Of a stretch of 40,119 nt of DNA, positions 4,114-40,097 are shown piece by piece. Both the position numbers and the translations under genes were made by a program. The notes under the pieces are model-generated. The model was not told the origin of the DNA, did not search any database, and saw nothing but the letters and a program-made list of their open reading frames with translations. This DNA comes from Saccharofermentans sp. (GTDB taxonomy: Bacteria > Bacillota > Clostridia > Saccharofermentanales > Saccharofermentanaceae): NCBI GenBank assembly GCA_024403655.1, contig JAKSRK010000016.1:1-40119 (forward strand), in the 5' to 3' direction. How positions within the stretch are numbered: the stretch's first letter is position 1; the number at the start of each line of letters is the position of its first letter.

Positions 4114-5010
4114 TCAAACCTTAATATACTTTCTTACCGAGATACCGGATCCGATGGCACCGATAAGAACACCGATAACGGAAGCGATAATGAGAACCCA
4201 CCACATAACATTTCCTGCCGGAATAAGGGCATAGAAACTGTTAAGGTCAACGCCTTCCATCACCTGATAGAATAATGTTCTGTAAGCAAAAATACTGATT
4301 GCCCATGCGCACAAAGCGGATATAAGACCGACAAGCGCGCCCTCTATAATGTAGGGAAGTCTTATGTAGGAATTGGTAGCTCCTACAAACTTCATGATTT
4401 CTATCTCACTAGCTCTTGAATAAACCGAGATTCTTACCATGTTGGAGATGATAAAAAGGGCTATTACAAAGAGAACAATAAACGATATAACAGTAGCAAG
4501 GTTAACCATGCTCTTTGCTCTGGTCAGGAAATGCATGACATTACTTTCCTGTGAGACCTTAGCTACACCCGGAAGCATCGTAAGTCGGTTAACAACATCC
4601 TGAGCCATGGCCGGATCTGAGATCTGAACATGGAATGTATAAGGAAGATATGTGTTGTAATCGAAGTCATCGAGAATAGATGCACTTGATCCGAGGTTAG
4701 TCTTGAAGTAATTATAATTCTCTTCGGGGTTTTGTACCGAATACTCGATGATCGCAGGATCCGCATCGATGGCAAGAGCCGTCTGATTCAGCTCTTCTTC
4801 AGTCACCTGAAGCTTCATGTAGACTTCAATAGGCGGTTCCTGGCTGAGCTTTCTCATTATGGATCTGACGTTTGCAGAGAACATAAAGAAAGCGCTCATG
4901 ACTATAAGCATAAGAAGGATGGTAGTAATAGACGCAATAGTAACAAGAGGATGTCTCGCGATACCCTTGAATCCTTCTCTGACAGAATTCATAAAAGCTC
5001 TGAAACTCAT
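4114..5010 (-). CDS. ftsX: Cell division ABC transporter permease FtsX
   Basis: 298 residues with the FtsX layout: a cytosolic N-terminus (GFKGIARHPLVTIASI), TM1 near residues 22-45, an extracellular loop of about 120 residues (EVYMKLQVTEEEL ... PGVAKV), then three further membrane segments near 170-195, 220-245 and 265-285. The loop is the part that contacts the wall hydrolase. Its start overlaps the ftsE stop by one base (TAATG). It works with FtsE and the downstream M23 hydrolase. Confidence 0.95.
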   Translation of the reverse strand: MSFRAFMNSVREGFKGIARHPLVTIASITTILLMLIVMSAFFMFSANVRSIMRKLSQEPPIEVYMKLQVTEEELNQTALAIDADPAIIEYSVQNPEENYNYFKTNLGSSASILDDFDYNTYLPYTFHVQISDPAMAQDVVNRLTMLPGVAKVSQESNVMHFLTRAKSMVNLATVISFIVLFVIALFIISNMVRISVYSRASEIEIMKFVGATNSYIRLPYIIEGALVGLISALCAWAISIFAYRTLFYQVMEGVDLNSFYALIPAGNVMWWVLIIASVIGVLIGAIGSGISVRKYIKV

Positions 5011-31070: not shown

Positions 31071-32812
31071 TCCTGATCGCCTCCCTTCGTCTGCTGCTCA
31101 TAGATCTCCTTATAGATGTCGCTCGTCTTAATGAGTTCGTCGTGAGTTCCCTGAGCCTTTATTGTTCCGCCTTCCATTACGAGGATAAGATCAGCGTCCT
31201 GAACGGAAGCTACTCGCTGAGCGATAATAATCTTGGTCGTATCAGGAATGAACTTCTTAAAGCCCATTCTGATCTGAGCGTCAGTCTTCATGTCGACGGC
31301 ACTCGTTGAGTCATCGAGGATTAGTATCTTGGGCTTCTTAAGGAGAGCTCTTGCAATACAAAGTCTCTGCTTCTGACCACCGGATACATTTGTACCGCCC
31401 TGCTCAATATGCGTATCGTATCCTTCGGGGAAGCCCATAATGAAGTCATGTGCCTGAGCAAGCTTACATGCTTCGATAAGCTCTTCGTCGCTTGCGTCTT
31501 TATTACCCCAGCGAAGGTTCTCCTTGATGGTTCCGGAGAAGATAACATTCTTCTGAAGAACTACGGATACCGCATCACGAAGAGTCTCAAGATCGTACTC
31601 TCTGACGTCTGTTCCGGCTACTTTAACGGAACCGGATGTTACATCGTAAAGTCTGGGAATAAGCTGGATAAGAGTAGTCTTACTTGAACCTGTACCGCCT
31701 AAGATACCTACCGTCATACCTGAATCGATATGAAGATCTATATCAGTAAGAGCTTCTCTTGCTGCTCTCGCAGAATAGCTGAAGTGAACATCAGTAAAGT
31801 CGATTGAACCGTCTTTTACTTCCATAACGGGAGATTCGGGATTCTTAATCGCGGGCTCCTCATTAAGTACTTCCGCGATTCTCTTAACAGACTCCAGGGA
31901 CATTGTAAGTACAACATAGATCATGGAAATCATCATAAGGGACATAAGAATCTGTACACCGTATGTCATCATGGCTGATATCTGACCTACATCGATTGTC
32001 GTACCCTTATTAACAATAATGAGTCTTGAGCCTACCGTAAGGATAAAGACCATATTAAAGAACATGCAAAACTGCATAAGAGGGCCGTTCATGGCTACGA
32101 TTCTCTCAGCCTTGGTGAAGTCGCCTCTGATGTCGTCGGAAGCTTCTGAGAACTTATTTATCTCATAGCCTTCTCTTGCAAAGCCCTTTACTACTCGCAT
32201 GGCTCTTACATTCTCTTCTACGGATTCATTAAGTCTGTCGTACTTCTTAAATACGGCTCTGAATGCAGGCATCGCGAACTTACCTATAAGGTAAAGACCG
32301 AAGATCATAACAGGAACTATGACTACGAATGTCATGGCAAGCTTGCCGCCCATAATAAATGCCATTGTAACAGCGAAGATAAACATCATGGGGGATCTTA
32401 CGGCAGTTCTTATGGTCATCATGAATGCATTCTGCATATTCGTGATATCCGTCGTCATTCTCGTAACCAAAGATGCTGTAGAGAATTTATCTATATTACT
32501 GAAAGAGAAATCCTGTACCTTCTCGTACATATCCTTTCGAACATTACGGGCAAGACCTGCAGAAGCACTTGCTGCCGTCTTACCTGCAAGAGCACCGCAC
32601 AGGAGTGAGAGCATAGCCGCAAGTATCATTATGATACTCGTGACGGCTACGGAACTAAGCTGCGCCCCTGCCTTAATGTCGTTAACTACCCTCGCCGTAA
32701 TAAAGGGTATCAAAACCTCCAGGAACACCTCGCCTATAATATAAACGAAAGTGAGCTTGGTAGGCTTGGAAAATTCACGAAGCGATTTAAGTATCGTCTT
32801 TACGTCTTTCAT
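31067..32812 (-). CDS. ABC exporter, ATPase-permease half with degenerate ATP site
   Basis: 581 residues: six TM helices to about residue 310, then the ATPase with Walker A GGTGSSKTT, Q-loop VVLQKNVIF and signature VSGGQKQR. The Walker B end reads LILDDSTSAVD, so the catalytic Glu is Asp, and the H-loop reads IIAQR, so the His is Gln. These changes mark the non-hydrolysing site found in heterodimeric exporters such as BmrC/LmrC. The start overlaps the marR stop by 1 bp. Confidence 0.93.
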   Translation of the reverse strand: MKDVKTILKSLREFSKPTKLTFVYIIGEVFLEVLIPFITARVVNDIKAGAQLSSVAVTSIIMILAAMLSLLCGALAGKTAASASAGLARNVRKDMYEKVQDFSFSNIDKFSTASLVTRMTTDITNMQNAFMMTIRTAVRSPMMFIFAVTMAFIMGGKLAMTFVVIVPVMIFGLYLIGKFAMPAFRAVFKKYDRLNESVEENVRAMRVVKGFAREGYEINKFSEASDDIRGDFTKAERIVAMNGPLMQFCMFFNMVFILTVGSRLIIVNKGTTIDVGQISAMMTYGVQILMSLMMISMIYVVLTMSLESVKRIAEVLNEEPAIKNPESPVMEVKDGSIDFTDVHFSYSARAAREALTDIDLHIDSGMTVGILGGTGSSKTTLIQLIPRLYDVTSGSVKVAGTDVREYDLETLRDAVSVVLQKNVIFSGTIKENLRWGNKDASDEELIEACKLAQAHDFIMGFPEGYDTHIEQGGTNVSGGQKQRLCIARALLKKPKILILDDSTSAVDMKTDAQIRMGFKKFIPDTTKIIIAQRVASVQDADLILVMEGGTIKAQGTHDELIKTSDIYKEIYEQQTKGGDQE

Positions 32813-33270
32813 TACTGATCTTTCCTTCCTTCTTCGAAAATGTATTCAAGCATAACGTCAAGCATACTGATAAGCTCTTCTCTCTTCTTATCACTTAAGC
32901 CGCCGCACATCTCTTTCAGAACCATATTGTCAGTCTCTTCTACTTCCTTATGGATTCTTCGAGCCTTCTGTGTGCTTCTTATCGACTTGGACCTCTTGTC
33001 CTTACTGCTTTTGGAACACTCAATAAAGCCGTTGGCTTCAAGCTTCTTTACAATCTCAGTCATGGTCTGATGAGTAAGCCCCATAGCCTGTTCCAGATCC
33101 TTCTGGTTAACTTCTTCACCATCGGCATCCCACTCACACTTATAAAGAGCGCCAAGAACACCGGCCTGCACCGAAGTCAGTCCGTGTTCTCTCATAAGAT
33201 CGTCTATTCTGCTCTTAAAAGCCCGGCATACTATGGAGAACTTAACTCCGACGGGCATATCTTCACGCAT
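32812..33270 (-). CDS. MarR family transcriptional regulator
   Basis: 152 residues. Winged-helix core: LTSVQAGVLGAL, NQKDLEQAMGLTHQTMTEIVKKLEANGFI (the recognition helix), followed by the basic wing SKDKRSKSI, with terminal dimerisation helices. It heads the ABC exporter operon and probably represses it until a ligand binds. AAGGAG lies 9 bases before the ATG. Confidence 0.93.
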   Translation of the reverse strand: MREDMPVGVKFSIVCRAFKSRIDDLMREHGLTSVQAGVLGALYKCEWDADGEEVNQKDLEQAMGLTHQTMTEIVKKLEANGFIECSKSSKDKRSKSIRSTQKARRIHKEVEETDNMVLKEMCGGLSDKKREELISMLDVMLEYIFEEGRKDQ

Positions 33271-33402: not shown

Positions 33403-34791
33403 TCAGTTCATAGAAAAGCCGCCAATAAAGACATCGTAATTATCAACACCCTCGGAGAAGAAGTAAACAACCGCACAAGAATCCTCATCACCTACAAGAG
33501 CAAAATGCAGGTAAGTTACAGTTCCGTCTGCTGCTGTTGCTGTAATATTACTAACTGTATATGTATAATCACCTACCGTGAACTCAGTATTAGTAGTCTC
33601 TGTGCTGACACCTTCAACAGAGTATTCTTCAACTGCCTGATTGAAACTGTTTATTGCCTCGGGAGAATCATAAGCAACAAAGGGAATATACATTGCAAAT
33701 GCTCCGGAATTATCAATCGGATTAACAGAGAAGAACAGCATAAACTGCGCAACGATAGGATCAGTTGATGACAATGACTCAAGTGCAGGATTATCACCGG
33801 GAATACATATCTGACCGTAAGGAAGTGAAAGCACGAGGTTCGTCTCGGGGAATGCGATAACTCCGTCGGCAGGTGCTATGTAGTAAGGACCTACATAAGA
33901 ACCTTCGACAGGCGCAGGCTCGGGTTCGGGCTCCTCCTCTGTAAGATCAGCCATTATAGTTCCGCTTGCCAGATAAGTGTCATCAGCAAGATAGAAAGTA
34001 AATGTATACTCACCAAAGAGGGGATCGCCAAAATATGAATAATCAGCGGTAAGACTTGTTCCGTCGCTGCTCATTACTTCCGAAGTAAGAAGGAATATGC
34101 CGTCGCACTCGATCATGTAGTAATAGTTCCACTCGAGTTCCTGGCCGTCACCTGTGATGGGAAGCTCGCAGCTGATTGCAGTAGCATCTAAATAGAAGTC
34201 GTTGCTTCCGAGACCGATGAACTCAACTTCTCCGATATAATTATCTCTGCTTAATGCCCAGTTGAACTCCTCAGTTGCATAAGGAAAAATATCCTTAATC
34301 TCATCTATATTGGTGCAGACGCATTCGCCGTCAATCTTCTCGAATTCAAAGGTAATAGTCAGCTCAACAACATCGTCACAGTCTTCGATAGCTGCTTCAA
34401 AAGAATCAATACCCTCAAAAATCGCAATGTCATCGATTGCCTTCTCATAATCTACATATGTGAAAACAATATCTATACTGCCTTCCTTACCAAAGAAATC
34501 ACCTTCAAAAGAATCCTCATCTACTTCATAAGTAAGAGTATCTGCGATAATCTCTCTTGCATCGTTATCTTCAGGAAAAGAATCCGTCTCCAATGTAAGA
34601 ACAGCTTCAAGCTCTTTGTCTTTGTCCGCTGCCATCTTCTCAATCTTCTTGTAGTTTCTTTCTACAATGAACTTACCAAGATCATCGGCCTTGTCCATAA
34701 CGCTGTTTTCAAACTTGGCAGAACATGAACATGTGCCTACCATCATTGAAGCAACAAGCGCCATCGAAATAACTTTCTTAGAATGATTCAT
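33403..34791 (-). CDS. Lipoprotein of unknown function
   Basis: 462 residues. N-terminal signal NHSKKVISMALVASMMVGTCSC with a lipobox-like VGTC (C21) or a second Cys at 23 suggests a lipid-anchored extracellular protein. The mature part is acidic, with two halves: residues about 30-290 (DUF-like, with helices around KFIVERNYKKIEKMA) and, after a Pro/Glu linker (EEEPEPEPAPVEG), a beta-rich domain of about 170 residues (YVGPYYIAPADGV onward). I do not recognise a catalytic motif. I chose ATG 34791, 7 bases after GGAGG; an ATG at 34797 is too close to it. Just downstream of the C39/mini-sigma genes but separated by an inverted repeat. Confidence 0.8.
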   Translation of the reverse strand: MNHSKKVISMALVASMMVGTCSCSAKFENSVMDKADDLGKFIVERNYKKIEKMAADKDKELEAVLTLETDSFPEDNDAREIIADTLTYEVDEDSFEGDFFGKEGSIDIVFTYVDYEKAIDDIAIFEGIDSFEAAIEDCDDVVELTITFEFEKIDGECVCTNIDEIKDIFPYATEEFNWALSRDNYIGEVEFIGLGSNDFYLDATAISCELPITGDGQELEWNYYYMIECDGIFLLTSEVMSSDGTSLTADYSYFGDPLFGEYTFTFYLADDTYLASGTIMADLTEEEPEPEPAPVEGSYVGPYYIAPADGVIAFPETNLVLSLPYGQICIPGDNPALESLSSTDPIVAQFMLFFSVNPIDNSGAFAMYIPFVAYDSPEAINSFNQAVEEYSVEGVSTETTNTEFTVGDYTYTVSNITATAADGTVTYLHFALVGDEDSCAVVYFFSEGVDNYDVFIGGFSMN

Positions 34792-34820
34792 TCTCATACC
34801 TCCCTTATATGGTTCGTATT

Positions 34821-34888: not shown

Positions 34889-35167
34889 TTATACTCCGGC
34901 CATAGCTTTATTGCCGAGAATAGCTCTTATCTCCTCTTCTTCAAGACCGAAGTAGAATCTGTAAAGATCCTCTTCGTTCTCATCAGGGAAGATATCCGCT
35001 ACGCATGTGCTGCGAACTATTCCGAAAAGCTCTGTCCTTGAAGGATTGTTTGCCTTTGCTGCTTCACTGAAAACCTGGTAGAAAGCTTCCTTTGCATCTT
35101 CCATACCGCCAAGATAATAAATACATAATCTGAGTACATCATTTGCATACTTGTCGATGTATTCCAT
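34889..35167 (-). CDS. Mini ECF sigma-like protein (region 2 remnant)
   Basis: 92 residues. The first 45 (EYIDKYANDVLRLCIYYLGGMEDAKEAFYQVF) fit sigma-70 region 2 of ECF factors, with the helix ending in ED-A-x-x-A-x-x-VF. The rest has a short FGIVRSTCVADIF segment like the start of the linker to region 4, and a truncated acidic EEEEIRAIL. A full region 4 HTH is absent. I chose ATG 35167 because AGGAG lies 7 bases upstream; an ATG at 35188 overlaps the C39 stop by 4 bp. It may be an anti-activator, an ancestral fragment, or part of a split sigma factor. Confidence 0.65.
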   Translation of the reverse strand: MEYIDKYANDVLRLCIYYLGGMEDAKEAFYQVFSEAAKANNPSRTELFGIVRSTCVADIFPDENEEDLYRFYFGLEEEEIRAILGNKAMAGV

Positions 35168-35184
35168 TTCATTACTCCTGTTAA

Positions 35185-36057
35185 TCATACGCTATACGCC
35201 CACATTCCTTGAATTTGAGGAAGAACCTCATCAATGTCCCACAGTCTTGACGTTCTCTCTCTGCTGTTGGGATCGATAATCCTTAAGTAACCGTCTTCAC
35301 AGGACACGAGAACGATAAAATGTCCTTCTGAAGTAAAATCTCCGGGGCCCATTATCGCGATAATCGGCTCGCCGTTAGCCAAATGCTCCTCAATGTCCCA
35401 GACCTCGCCTGTGACTTCGCAGCTCTGCAGTCCCAACTGTTCTGCCCCGCTATACATAAGGGACCAGTAAGTACCGCTGTAGTTCTCATAATCGTAATAT
35501 CCGTTATCCATGCTGAACTGGGCAACCCACGCAGGAGTCATATAATCATTTCCCAAAAGGTATACGGCTACCATCGACAGGCATGTCGGGCCGCATCCGG
35601 TAAAGGCAAAAAGGTCACTTCCGTAAGTTCTGTATCCCCATCTCTGGTCCCACTGATAAAACTCCGGAATCCCCTGAGCCATGTCTATATCTTTTCTTAT
35701 CGAAATGCTAACGATATTTACATCTTCGTCTTCTTCCATATGATTGGGATACTCTAAGACAAAATCTCTTAATTCAGGATTAGTTACCATTCTCTCAACC
35801 ATATAATCCGGATATAAATCTTCGTCGATGTTGTGTCTGTCAGCATAAATTGTTATTACTTCTCTGGCATCATCTTCGTTATTAATCGGAATCAGTCTGT
35901 AGTCATTGAATTCGATGTCCTGTTCCAATTCTCTGACCGATAAATCTTTACCGGCTGCCATGGCAGCGTCTTCGTATATGCCGTTTAAAATGATATATGT
36001 CGTTGCTGCAGTAATTAATAAAATGAAAAAACCGATTACTAGTTTATTGCGTTTCAT
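35185..36057 (-). CDS. C39-family cysteine peptidase, copy 1
   Basis: 290 residues. TM anchor or uncleaved signal at about 6-25 (VIGFFILLITAATTYIIL), a helical region to about 125, then a papain-like Peptidase_C39_2 domain with the Cys motif TGCGPTCLSM, the His in EGHFIVLVS, and Asp in RIIDPNSRER: a complete Cys-His-Asp triad. The domain starts at IPEFYQWDQRWGY. Outer-surface peptidase is likely; substrate unknown. It is a paralogue of the gene at 36153, sharing domain order. A shared 22-bp element lies upstream (36122-36143). Good GGAGG before the ATG. Confidence 0.85.
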   Translation of the reverse strand: MKRNKLVIGFFILLITAATTYIILNGIYEDAAMAAGKDLSVRELEQDIEFNDYRLIPINNEDDAREVITIYADRHNIDEDLYPDYMVERMVTNPELRDFVLEYPNHMEEDEDVNIVSISIRKDIDMAQGIPEFYQWDQRWGYRTYGSDLFAFTGCGPTCLSMVAVYLLGNDYMTPAWVAQFSMDNGYYDYENYSGTYWSLMYSGAEQLGLQSCEVTGEVWDIEEHLANGEPIIAIMGPGDFTSEGHFIVLVSCEDGYLRIIDPNSRERTSRLWDIDEVLPQIQGMWAYSV

Positions 36058-36121
36058 CGTAGCCTCCGTCAGGTTTTACGTTAATATCCTACCGAAGACT
36101 TGTCACACCCTAGTGTTGTAG

Positions 36122-36143
36122 ATGTGTCAAAGTTGCAATATTT
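36122..36143. repeat. 22-bp element, copy 1 (upstream of C39 copy 1)
   Basis: Contains TGTGTCAAAGTTGCAATAT; identical over 22 bp, in opposite orientation, to 40076-40097. It ends 33 bp before a TAGGAT -10-like sequence on the minus strand. Confidence 0.85.
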
Positions 36144-36152
36144 GATATGAAT

Positions 36153-37034
36153 TTACATAATTCTGAATACCCAGAGGGTAATTATCTCCTCAGACAGCTC
36201 GTCAAAGCTCCATTCACGCTCTGAATTTGCAATGCTGTTGGGATCGTTAACGGTAAAATAGCCGTCAGAATAATCCGTTATAACAATAAAGTGGCCACCG
36301 TCAGTAAACTGCCCCTCGCCTACTATGGCGATAATGGGGTTGCCGACATCAAGATTTCTCACCATCCTGTCTTCGTCAACAGTAATCTCTACCACATCTA
36401 TGCCAAGTCCGTTGGCACCGTCGGTCATAAGGCTCCAGTAAGAACCGGAGTTGTCCTCATAATCGTAATAGCCGTTATTCATGGCATAGTCAGCCATCCA
36501 TGCAGGAGTCATATCAGTATTGCCAAGAAGATGAATGGCAACCATAGACAGGCAAGTAGGTCCGCATCCGGTAAGTCCGAGAGGTCCGCTTCCGTATATC
36601 TTATAGCCCCATCTCATATCCCACTGGTAAAGTCTGGGAACACGGACACGACTTACTTCGGAAGAGAGATCAATGTCACTGTCTTCGCATGCTTCATGAA
36701 GCGGATAGTTAAGAACATAATCTATAGTCTCGGGATTACGCGCCAGAAGATTCACCATGTTCTCGGGATAATCCGACAGACTGAGACCGTTGACCTCAGC
36801 AAAAGCCGAGATAACATTTCTGGCATCTTCGGTGCTGTTTATCTGCATCGAATACCATACGGGCTCTTCTTCAGAAGCCTCAGTCAAATCACTTACAACA
36901 GTAATATCGGGTGCTATCCCGGGTGCTGACGACTCCTGAACATGTTCTCTTTGAGAGAATTTTATCCCCGCAAGAACAATGGCGGCGGCTGCCACCATTG
37001 TTAATAGTATTCCTGCAATCAATTTCTTATTCAT
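36153..37034 (-). CDS. C39-family cysteine peptidase, copy 2
   Basis: 293 residues, same plan as copy 1. TM or signal at about 4-22 (LIAGILLTMVAAAAIVLAGI), a less conserved acidic segment, a helical region (ARNVISAFAEVNGLSL), then the Peptidase_C39_2 domain VPRLYQWDMRWGYKIYG with TGCGPTCLSMV, GGHFIVITD and TVNDPNSIAN. The triad is intact. It follows the anchored unknown gene at 37057 by 22 bp and is probably the last gene of the regulator operon. The motif DMTPAWMADYAMNNGYYDYE is nearly repeated in copy 1, so duplication is clear. Confidence 0.86.
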   Translation of the reverse strand: MNKKLIAGILLTMVAAAAIVLAGIKFSQREHVQESSAPGIAPDITVVSDLTEASEEEPVWYSMQINSTEDARNVISAFAEVNGLSLSDYPENMVNLLARNPETIDYVLNYPLHEACEDSDIDLSSEVSRVRVPRLYQWDMRWGYKIYGSGPLGLTGCGPTCLSMVAIHLLGNTDMTPAWMADYAMNNGYYDYEDNSGSYWSLMTDGANGLGIDVVEITVDEDRMVRNLDVGNPIIAIVGEGQFTDGGHFIVITDYSDGYFTVNDPNSIANSEREWSFDELSEEIITLWVFRIM

Positions 37035-37056
37035 ATATTAAGTATATATCTTAAGC

Positions 37057-37926
37057 TTATATGTTTTCCATACCATCATACACATACAAAAATACACGCC
37101 AGACATAATATGGGGTGTAATAGTCACCCTGAATATACGATGCCTCGATTGGATAGTAGACTTCATAGCTGAAGCTGACCTCAAGTGTAAGTCTGTTGTC
37201 AGACGTCGTAATATATCTTGTATAGCTGTTCTCAGTCTCAGAACTTCCGGACTCAATCATGAAGTCTAGACCTGTATACGCGTTATACATCTCAGCTATA
37301 TTGTAGAATACTTCCGTTGAATCCAGATTCCTGCTATGTGATATAAAGCGAACATCAGAACTTACGGGGACTCCGCTTACGGTATCAAGAACAAACCAGT
37401 CACTCTGGGTGCCGGGAGTATCGCCGAGGACGATAGAATTCTCCCCAAGACCTCTGATATTAAAAAACTCGGGAGCAGTGCTGCCAAATACTTCGCTTAG
37501 ATAATCCAGATACTCAAAAACAAACTCTTCGCCATCAGAACTTATACCTATCTGAGCATATCCGTCATCACGAAGTGCCCTGTCCCGATATGGATATCCC
37601 ACCATATCGATATAATATTCGGCATAGAGAACTTCGTTTATGTAATCCTGATAAGCAGCGGCTAATGCCGTCTCGCTCTTTTCATAAGCGGCACTATAAG
37701 GCTGAACCTCGTTGATATCCACCTGGCCTGACGGAAGGCTGTCAGAATTGGATTTTAAGCCGATAATCAGACTTGGTATCATCGCACCGGCACCGACAAT
37801 GACAACGGTTGCAATTGCAAGCATAACAAGACCGGTAAGTCTTGTAGCATCACGCTTTATCCTTGACCTTCTTTTTCCCATTTTGCTCTGCAGCTTCTCT
37901 GATGAACTACTCTTCGTCATCGTCAT
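37057..37926 (-). CDS. Membrane-anchored extracytoplasmic protein of unknown function
   Basis: 289 residues. A basic cytosolic N-terminus (KMGKRRSRIKRDATR) precedes one TM helix at about 34-56 (VMLAIATVVIVGAGAMIPSLII), then an acidic, aromatic-rich extracellular domain of about 230 residues with many Tyr (EVLYAEYYIDMVGYPYRD). No catalytic motif is recognised. It follows the sensor kinase with a 20-bp overlap, so it is coupled to it; a role as sensor partner is inferred. ATG 37926 chosen; the site is weak, and an ATG at 37920 and a TTG at 37944 are in frame. Confidence 0.72.
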   Translation of the reverse strand: MTMTKSSSSEKLQSKMGKRRSRIKRDATRLTGLVMLAIATVVIVGAGAMIPSLIIGLKSNSDSLPSGQVDINEVQPYSAAYEKSETALAAAYQDYINEVLYAEYYIDMVGYPYRDRALRDDGYAQIGISSDGEEFVFEYLDYLSEVFGSTAPEFFNIRGLGENSIVLGDTPGTQSDWFVLDTVSGVPVSSDVRFISHSRNLDSTEVFYNIAEMYNAYTGLDFMIESGSSETENSYTRYITTSDNRLTLEVSFSYEVYYPIEASYIQGDYYTPYYVWRVFLYVYDGMENI

Positions 37927-39334
37927 ATCCGTTTCCGTCTTCAAGCTTAAGTCTGATTCTTATGGCGGTACCTTCGCCTTCCCTGCTTCGTATATCAAGT
38001 CTCGTCTTATGTATCTGCGCTATCCTTTCGCAAAGTGCGAGGCCAAGACCCGCACCGTGCTCCTTACGTGAACGTGCCTTATCTACCATGTAGAATGCTT
38101 CTGTAACTCGCTTCAGTTCTTCTTTGGGAATACCGCGGCCGTGGTCTACGATTGCGATCATATAGACGTCATCCTTACTTTGAGCAAGAACAGCTACGTC
38201 CGAAGTTCCGGACTTCATGGCATTATCTATAAGATTCAGTACAAGGGTCTTAAAGAGGTCAATCTCTATCCTTACGTAGCCGGGTTCATAGTCAAAGATG
38301 GTCTTTATTCCCTTTCGCGCTGCTGCAGGTTTTATAGTATCTTCGATATCCTTCATGAAGTCGCTCATCTGTATCTCTTCAAGCATAAAGTCGTCCTTAC
38401 GAAGTGTCATAAGTTCCAAAAGCTTAAAGGACAAAGATTCAAGTCTCATTCCTTCATTGACGATAAAGCCTGCTGCTGCTCTTGCCTCCGTCTCGGAAAG
38501 GTCCTTCTGATAAAGTGTATCAGCATATCCTATTATGCTCGTCATGGGAGTCTTAAGCTCATGTGCAAACGCAGCGGTGAAGTCCTCTCTCTGCTTTACG
38601 GCGAGCTCGAGTGCGGAGATTTTATCTTCAATCGAATCCGCCATCTGGTTATAAACGGAAGCCAGCTTGCCTATCTCATCACGGCTTCTGACCTTAACTC
38701 GTCCGGAATAGTCTCCATGAGTAAAGCCTGCGCCTACATCGGTCAGTTCCTTTATGGGCCTTGTAATAAAACTTGAGAATACAATCGCAAACAAGATACC
38801 TGTGGCAGTGACTCCAAGGAATACCCATACACAGTTCTTGGCCATTTCTCTGACATTGTCATAACCGGATGTAATATCGGTCTGTGTTATAAGAAGATAC
38901 TGCTTGTCGTTTTGTGAAATTAAACTTCCGGACATAATCAGCTTGCGATCATCTGCGGTAACCTTGGTGAAGTATTCAATCTGATTCTCAACCGGATCAA
39001 TCTCCGGAAGTGTCAGCTTAATCGAGTTGGAGATAAGGGCTCCTGACGGATATTCATATAAAGCAAGAGGAATATCCATGGACTCCGATACTGACATGCC
39101 GATGCTTCTAAGCGTGGTGTAATTAAGTCCCTGCCTGGAGTCACTGTCGGCTGAGGAAGAGAAGATATCAGACTGTATCGCATACTTAACAAGCTGATGG
39201 TTATTAAGTGCAGTATCTACCTGTGTGGATATGTTGGCTTCCAAACTCATGGCAACAGTAAAGTACTCTGTAACGGAAAGCGCCAGAGTAATCAGTACAA
39301 GCATTGAGAAATAGAGTTTGGAAAAGAAATTCAT
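37907..39334 (-). CDS. Sensor histidine kinase
   Basis: 475 residues. TM1 near residues 5-30, an extracytoplasmic sensor of about 130, TM2 near 168-190 (VWVFLGVTATGILFAIV), HAMP (ITRPIKELTDVGAGF to VYNQMADSI), HisKA with H258 in FAHELKTPMTS, and the ATPase with NLIDNAMKSG (N box), DHGRGIP (G1) and GAGLGLAL (G2). It is coupled to the response regulator by a 4-bp overlap. The signal is probably an envelope stress. Confidence 0.95.
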   Translation of the reverse strand: MNFFSKLYFSMLVLITLALSVTEYFTVAMSLEANISTQVDTALNNHQLVKYAIQSDIFSSSADSDSRQGLNYTTLRSIGMSVSESMDIPLALYEYPSGALISNSIKLTLPEIDPVENQIEYFTKVTADDRKLIMSGSLISQNDKQYLLITQTDITSGYDNVREMAKNCVWVFLGVTATGILFAIVFSSFITRPIKELTDVGAGFTHGDYSGRVKVRSRDEIGKLASVYNQMADSIEDKISALELAVKQREDFTAAFAHELKTPMTSIIGYADTLYQKDLSETEARAAAGFIVNEGMRLESLSFKLLELMTLRKDDFMLEEIQMSDFMKDIEDTIKPAAARKGIKTIFDYEPGYVRIEIDLFKTLVLNLIDNAMKSGTSDVAVLAQSKDDVYMIAIVDHGRGIPKEELKRVTEAFYMVDKARSRKEHGAGLGLALCERIAQIHKTRLDIRSREGEGTAIRIRLKLEDGNGYDDDEE

Positions 39335-40002
39335 AATCTGCTGTCAGGTATATATAATCTGTATCCTATTCTGAATACAGTCTGAATAACTTCATCGTAT
39401 CCGAGCTTCTTACGAAGTCGCTGGATGTGATTATCAAGCGTTCTGGTCTGGCCGAGATACTCTTCCTTCCACACGCTCTCATACAAATACTCACGCGTAA
39501 GCGCAATATTCTTATTCCTTATAAGTGTCTCAAGAAGGTCGAATTCCTTAGTAGTCAGAAGTATTTCACCTGCAGGGCCGAAGACACTTCTTGAATCGAT
39601 ATCAACGGAAATGCCGCCATAAGAAAACATCTCAGGCTGCTTAATGGTTCTTCTGAGGACAGACTCTACTCTTGCTACAAGCTCACCAATCTGGAAAGGC
39701 TTGCAAAGATAGTCGTCAGCACCCATTCTAAGTCCCCTGATTCTGTCGCTTACCTGATTCATGGCAGAGATAATAATTACCGGAGTATCTGACTCCCTTC
39801 TAATTATCTCAAGAAGCTCATAACCTGATACCTTGGGAAGCATCAGATCCAAAAGCACGAGATCCCAGTTATTATTCTCGAGAAGTGCCAGTCCCTCTTC
39901 ACCGTCAGTAGCAACAGTACACTCGTATCTGGCATCAGTTAAAGTCAAATATATAAGATTGGATATGGCCGCATCATCTTCGACCGTAAGGATTCTTATC
40001 AT
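39331..40002 (-). CDS. OmpR/PhoB-type response regulator
   Basis: 223 residues. Receiver with acidic pocket ED (8-10), phospho-acceptor D52 in VLLDLMLP, conserved SAMN and CKPF; then a winged-helix DNA-binding domain (LTTKEFDLLETLIRN ... TRTLDNHIQRLRKKLGY). It is the first gene of the operon. A candidate binding element lies upstream. Confidence 0.96.
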   Translation of the reverse strand: MIRILTVEDDAAISNLIYLTLTDARYECTVATDGEEGLALLENNNWDLVLLDLMLPKVSGYELLEIIRRESDTPVIIISAMNQVSDRIRGLRMGADDYLCKPFQIGELVARVESVLRRTIKQPEMFSYGGISVDIDSRSVFGPAGEILLTTKEFDLLETLIRNKNIALTREYLYESVWKEEYLGQTRTLDNHIQRLRKKLGYDEVIQTVFRIGYRLYIPDSRL

Positions 40003-40035
40003 TATCGTAACCTCAGTTTCTTTTTTGCACGTTAT

Positions 40036-40041
40036 ATTGTA
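40036..40041 (-). promoter_or_regulatory. Possible -10 of the response-regulator operon
   Basis: TACAAT on the minus strand, 34 bp before the start codon. Only CCCACA lies 17 bp upstream, so the promoter probably needs an activator. Confidence 0.45.
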
Positions 40042-40075
40042 GACCGAATTTTACGTTTTGTGGGGCTTCCTGTGT

Positions 40076-40097
40076 AAATATTGCAACTTTGACACAT
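40076..40097. repeat. 22-bp element, copy 2 (upstream of response regulator)
   Basis: Exact inverse of 36122-36143, lying 34 bp upstream of the -10 candidate. Position fits an activator site of the OmpR family. Confidence 0.85.

Follow-up and report, generated by a model that had tools for sequence, protein, structure and literature searches.

On a Saccharofermentans contig, a 22-bp sequence occurs twice, in inverted orientation. Very probably, it is where a two-component response regulator docks to control both its own operon and an adjacent operon of cysteine peptidases. In line with the binding-site reading of the initial annotation, we put at about 0.88 the probability that the element is a high-affinity operator of the regulator encoded at 39331-40002, acting in autoregulation and in activation of the C39/mini-sigma genes. 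Within this reading, binding of the box by the regulator is predicted with high confidence, activation at the C39b promoter appears likely, and autoregulation is rather more probably positive than negative. Comparison across genomes shows that, at the sequence level, the box is conserved, tied to one regulator clade, and held in fixed register with predicted -10 elements.

The window, i.e., the entire 40,119-nt stretch that we analysed, is the whole of contig 33. Scanning it places ATGTGTCAAAGTTGCAATATTT exactly at 36122-36143 (plus strand) and 40076-40097 (minus strand), which agrees with the inverted 22-bp repeat originally described, and the inverted arms around the 22-mer measure 29 nt at 93% identity. 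A genome-wide search, which the initial annotation had suggested, returned only two copies at up to three mismatches in the whole 2.15-Mb genome (124 contigs), both at the cluster. Chance had been judged an unlikely source of such a match, and indeed only 0.03 matches to the 18-base core are expected at up to three mismatches in shuffled windows. Further box members in the same genome were sought as matches, at up to three mismatches, to the D9/D31 promoter grammar defined below, and these were not above the reversed control. The identity of the two boxes within the genome could partly reflect gene conversion. Both copies are intergenic, again as first described, and lie 5' of the minus-strand genes C39b (start 36057) and the response regulator (start 40002); the contig ends 22 bases past the regulator box. 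All genes near the boxes are on the minus strand, and the cluster is composed as follows:

32812-33270: neighbouring MarR protein
33403-34797, minus strand: lipoprotein
34889-35188, minus strand: mini-sigma, a 99-aa sigma-region-2-like protein whose gene overlaps the end of C39b (Sigma70_r2 matched, weakly, in relatives only)
35185-36057, minus strand: C39b, C39-like cysteine peptidase (Peptidase_C39_2, E 3.5e-17), first gene of the putative second regulated operon, with a D31 promoter
36153-37034, minus strand: C39a, C39-like cysteine peptidase (Peptidase_C39_2, E 6.7e-19)
37057-37944, minus strand: fast-evolving membrane-anchored protein of the operon
37907-39334, minus strand: histidine kinase (HAMP, HisKA, HATPase_c)
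39331-40002, minus strand: OmpR-family response regulator, presumed box binder (Response_reg, E 4.1e-28; Trans_reg_C, E 7.8e-23), with recognition helix TRTLDNHIQRLRKKL

The regulator combines a receiver with a winged-helix Trans_reg_C domain, the arrangement of the OmpR/PhoB family, and its nearest solved structure is RegX3. The membrane protein of the operon, for which a Pfam search matched no family, is only ~22-35% identical between relatives, versus 71-93% for the regulator; the box has thus been retained with the regulator across a large divergence. This protein is a candidate for a partner of the sensor or a substrate of the peptidases. The genes of C39a and C39b lie in tandem and are paralogous (74% identical in DNA over 206 nt within 35185-37034), and some relatives (G044, G045, and G085) have a single C39 gene. 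As for mini-sigma, presumably cotranscribed with C39b and kept next to it in many relatives, it resembles region 2 of ECF sigma factors only (weak Sigma70_r2 matches in relatives at L054 and L055), with no recognisable region 4.

The distribution of the box follows that of the regulator. In a blind scan of 85 Saccharofermentans genomes for the core TGTGTCARAGTTGNMA, allowing no mismatch, we found 46 sites in 19 genomes, while the control, the same pattern read backwards, gave 0; the other 103 genomes of the order contain just 2 matches. A close OmpR-type regulator with the helix NHIQRLRKK is encoded in 16 genomes of the genus, all 16 of which have sites, compared with 3 of the 69 others (hypergeometric P = 1.2e-14, a value that overstates independence because the genomes are related). 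The regulator promoter carries the box in 15 of these 16 genomes, and C39-side boxes are found in most. In 12/12 genomes of the genus, the window included, whose regulators are 71-100% identical, the same reverse box lies 5' of the regulator; the regulator box of G074 is degenerate (TGTGTCGGATTTGTCAT), and in G057 the regulator gene has no box directly upstream and four boxes lie elsewhere in the genome.

Site and recognition helix also co-vary beyond this clade. Genomes encoding sister regulators with the helix NHIKRIRQK or NHVSSLRKK are devoid of core sites, and the NHIKRIRQK group has a diverged box at the regulator promoter (TTTTACAAATCTGATACA-AGTCAGTGG-TATAGT), at an unchanged spacing of 9 nt, as if protein and site had diverged together. 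In a Lachnospiraceae record, a regulator 67% identical to that of the window is accompanied by a box, TGACATCTTTGACACA, with an ACA half-site in matching register. The exceptions are G011, G031, and G078, in which searches with the full-length regulator, its DNA-binding domain, and the kinase as queries detected no regulator. The G031 assembly, at 97% completeness, contains a pair of perfect D31 promoters, one of them at a C39 gene, and neither a close regulator nor a close kinase; a single box is present in each of G011 and G078. In G031 and G011, the missing regulator possibly reflects gene loss or an assembly gap.

Two other sets of sequences came up during these scans. About 16 near matches in G062 (TATGTCAAAGTTGCATT) were considered as boxes and rejected, since the three copies that were read all proved to be an unrelated intergenic repeat. 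This interspersed repeat is built from TATGTCAAA/TTTGACATA units (~16 copies; L216-L218). On contig 85 of G000 (4165-4214; L233 and L268), two diverged boxes, CAACTCGTACACA and CAACTCGTATACA, stand in tandem at a distance of exactly 22 nt, followed after 9 nt by TAATAT; a paralogous regulator may use this pair as its site.

Placement of the box relative to the promoter is unusually strict. For this analysis, sites were chosen by sequence alone, except for two degenerate ones added by hand (the G074 regulator and a G044 C39 gene), and we designated as D9 or D31 a direct box, with TKRCAACTYTGACACA read towards the gene, followed by TANNNT exactly 9 or 31 nt on. One of these two offsets is seen in 35/36 direct boxes (27/28 when non-redundant), against a background of ~1 per offset, the exception being on contig 17 of G044. 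The two spacings differ by 22 nt, or two helical turns. All D31 promoters (16/16 non-redundant) have a second, weaker element in which ACA, usually within GTGACA, ends 9 nt before the -10, and the ends of the strong and weak boxes are 22 nt apart in the same 16/16; on contig 33 of G062 the second copy is nearly complete (TTGCAACTCAAACACA). Within the box, half-sites recur with a period of 11 (TGT-N8-TGT), weakly so in the window, which has TGC as the second. Direct repeats with a period of ~10-11 bp, boxes stacked in whole turns, and a fixed placement to the -10 that replaces or assists a poor -35 are all features of OmpR/PhoB-family sites. Head-to-tail dimers of this family have just such an 11-bp period and 22-nt stacking.

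Regulator promoters of the window's clade show a different geometry. A reverse box is separated from TANNNT by 37 nt in six genomes and by 38 nt in the other six, and the far side of these boxes has no common -10 offset across the 12 genomes. In G062, G010, and G029, a direct D9 box replaces the reverse one. In G037 (L058, 6340-6472), a full divergent D31 promoter, like the C39b promoter of the same genome, is found 5' of the regulator, with no obvious gene behind it. The two promoters of the window are laid out as follows:

40076-40097, minus strand: box of the response regulator, reverse orientation, TGTGTCAAAGTTGCAAT read towards the gene, 38 nt to the -10
40036-40041, minus strand: predicted -10 (TACAAT) of the regulator operon, with TANNNT 37-38 nt from the box in 12/12 genomes
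36122-36143, plus strand: box of C39b, direct when read on the minus strand, ATTGCAACTTTGACACA towards the gene, 31 nt to the -10
36101-36106, minus strand: weak second half-site GTGACA, ending 9 nt before the -10 (ACA in 16/16 non-redundant D31 promoters)
36086-36091, minus strand: predicted -10 (TAGGAT) of the C39b operon

These positions revise the initial annotation, which had placed both boxes 33-34 bp from their -10 elements; the actual distances are 31 nt to TAGGAT (C39b) and 38 nt to TACAAT (regulator). The likeness it had seen between the two -10 regions (TTCGGT...TAACGT) is absent from relatives and hence incidental. It was right that both promoters lack a good -35 (neither has one), and the opposite orientation of the boxes relative to the promoters, which it had called odd, is real and conserved.

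In relatives, the genes behind the boxes define a regulon whose constant members are the regulator operon and the C39 peptidases, the C39 genes having the box in direct orientation. This check of the genes behind each copy, another of the earlier suggestions, found that boxes follow promoters even where the locus is reordered, as in G085. D31 boxes before C39 genes are also present in G029, G057, and G062, whose regulators are 62-65% identical to that of the window. Several species add, with boxes, 746-822-aa lipoproteins with weak matches to solute-binding proteins and ABC-importer permeases, and G014 and G068 add small lipoproteins. Near-identical lipoprotein genes (MNSANRIVSIVLF...) preceded by a direct D9 box are found on several contigs in G010 (L060, L204, and L205) and G078 (L215).

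The orientation and spacing rules resemble those of known OmpR-family systems. For Salmonella PhoP, activation is supported by direct boxes at 12 or 23 nt and by reverse boxes at 27, 37, or 48 nt from the -10, while other phases fail, i.e., one orientation works at integral and the other at half-integral helical turns (PMC3335776). Direct boxes at 9/31 nt and reverse boxes at 37-38 nt obey a PhoP-like rule, which explains the orientation that had seemed odd. PhoP shares with the present system its family, autoregulation, single- and two-box promoters, and direct boxes near the -10 with reverse ones at half-integral turns. However, it belongs to another phylum, with another regulon and sensor, its (T/G)GTTTA repeats are unlike the box described here, and its direct spacings differ from our 9 and 31 nt, which depend on our box boundary. 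The WalR/VicR box of Firmicutes is TGTWAH-N5-TGTWAH (PMC4168254), likewise an 11-bp direct repeat that starts with TGT and is used on either strand. In contrast, the half-sites here are TGTGTC and TGCAAT/TGTCAT at the same period, TGTGTC does not fit TGTWAH, and kinase and operon differ, with C39 peptidases and mini-sigma in the present case. A PhoB box also stands in for a -35, and the recognition helix of PhoB is similar to that of our regulator. The pho box, CTGTCATA-(T/A)A(T/A)-CTGTCACA (quoted in PMC4168254), shares TGTCA-type half-sites with ours, but the regulon here is without phosphate genes, and the strong/weak two-box layout 22 nt apart is unlike PhoB.

Could the box be the operator of another co-occurring regulator, such as the MarR protein (32812-33270) or a second OmpR-type protein? 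A MarR gene is found downstream in several loci, and the boxes of G031 and G011 occur without the regulator. Nevertheless, the loci of G068, G035, and G014 have both boxes without MarR, and box presence follows the recognition helix of the response regulator. Moreover, MarR sites are usually palindromes, whereas the asymmetric, 11-bp-period layout with its two-turn tandem is OmpR-like. We therefore consider another binder improbable, and MarR and mini-sigma were both disfavoured as candidates. The initial annotation had also raised a flanking inverted repeat of a mobile unit, here a cassette comprising regulator, kinase, membrane protein, and C39a. While exact inverted copies do bracket these four genes in the window, and the neighbourhoods of the cluster differ between species, segment bounds and gene order vary without regard to the boxes. 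Although outside the repeats, C39b and mini-sigma travel with the block (G044/G045), C39-mini-sigma is placed upstream of the regulator in G085, and lone boxes are found at unlinked promoters far from the regulator. No transposase was seen in the interval between the boxes, and a fixed -10 spacing is unexpected for terminal repeats. We reject the cassette reading as highly improbable.

A further alternative accepts the regulator as binder and confines activation to C39b, the box at the regulator serving repression or a feedback shut-off of the operon, or a divergent transcript. It draws on the opposite box orientation at the regulator, on the full divergent D31 layout 5' of the regulator in G037 (TGACAACTTTGACACA-N31-TATACT), and on a divergent coaX-like gene in G044/G045. 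However, the distance of 37-38 nt to the regulator -10 is retained in 12/12 genomes, the divergent side has no common -10 offset, and the box does not overlap the promoter but sits at a good distance upstream. This alternative thus appears unlikely, and the operator reading with probable activation of both operons is the one that we favour. The comparative evidence for an operator is that the box tracks one helix, sits at regulator promoters, and keeps a fixed -10 spacing.

We therefore propose the following mechanism, built from promoter geometry. Once phosphorylated, the regulator would occupy the box as a dimer in head-to-tail arrangement. In front of C39b, the strong box and the weak GTGACA, two helical turns apart, would set a dimer beside a -10 that has no -35, so that the regulator could recruit RNA polymerase and activate both C39b and mini-sigma. 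At the regulator's promoter, the reversed box, at 38 nt (half-integral in helical turns) from the -10, would also permit OmpR-type activation, which makes positive autoregulation the likeliest outcome. The lack of a -35 at both promoters fits activation. More speculatively, the cluster may be an envelope-signalling module in which one box is read by a three-way code of orientation and spacing (direct at 9, direct at 31 with a helper half-site, and reverse at 37-38), running a loop of kinase, fast-evolving membrane protein, paired C39 peptidases, and shrunken sigma-like protein. In such a tentative scheme, exported peptidases would process the membrane protein or another envelope ligand, feeding back on the kinase.

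The regulon is a new one of a familiar type, and its promoter spacing is unusually strict and readable. Among the papers searched, none named Saccharofermentans together with two-component systems. For a two-component system of this rumen genus that is as yet uncharacterised, the comparisons would provide the binding site, its consensus, and the regulon, and would link C39 peptidases, lipoproteins resembling solute-binding proteins, and importer genes to one sensor. They also yield an unusually clean natural data set on the way in which promoter architecture in Firmicutes is set by the orientation and helical phase of a box.
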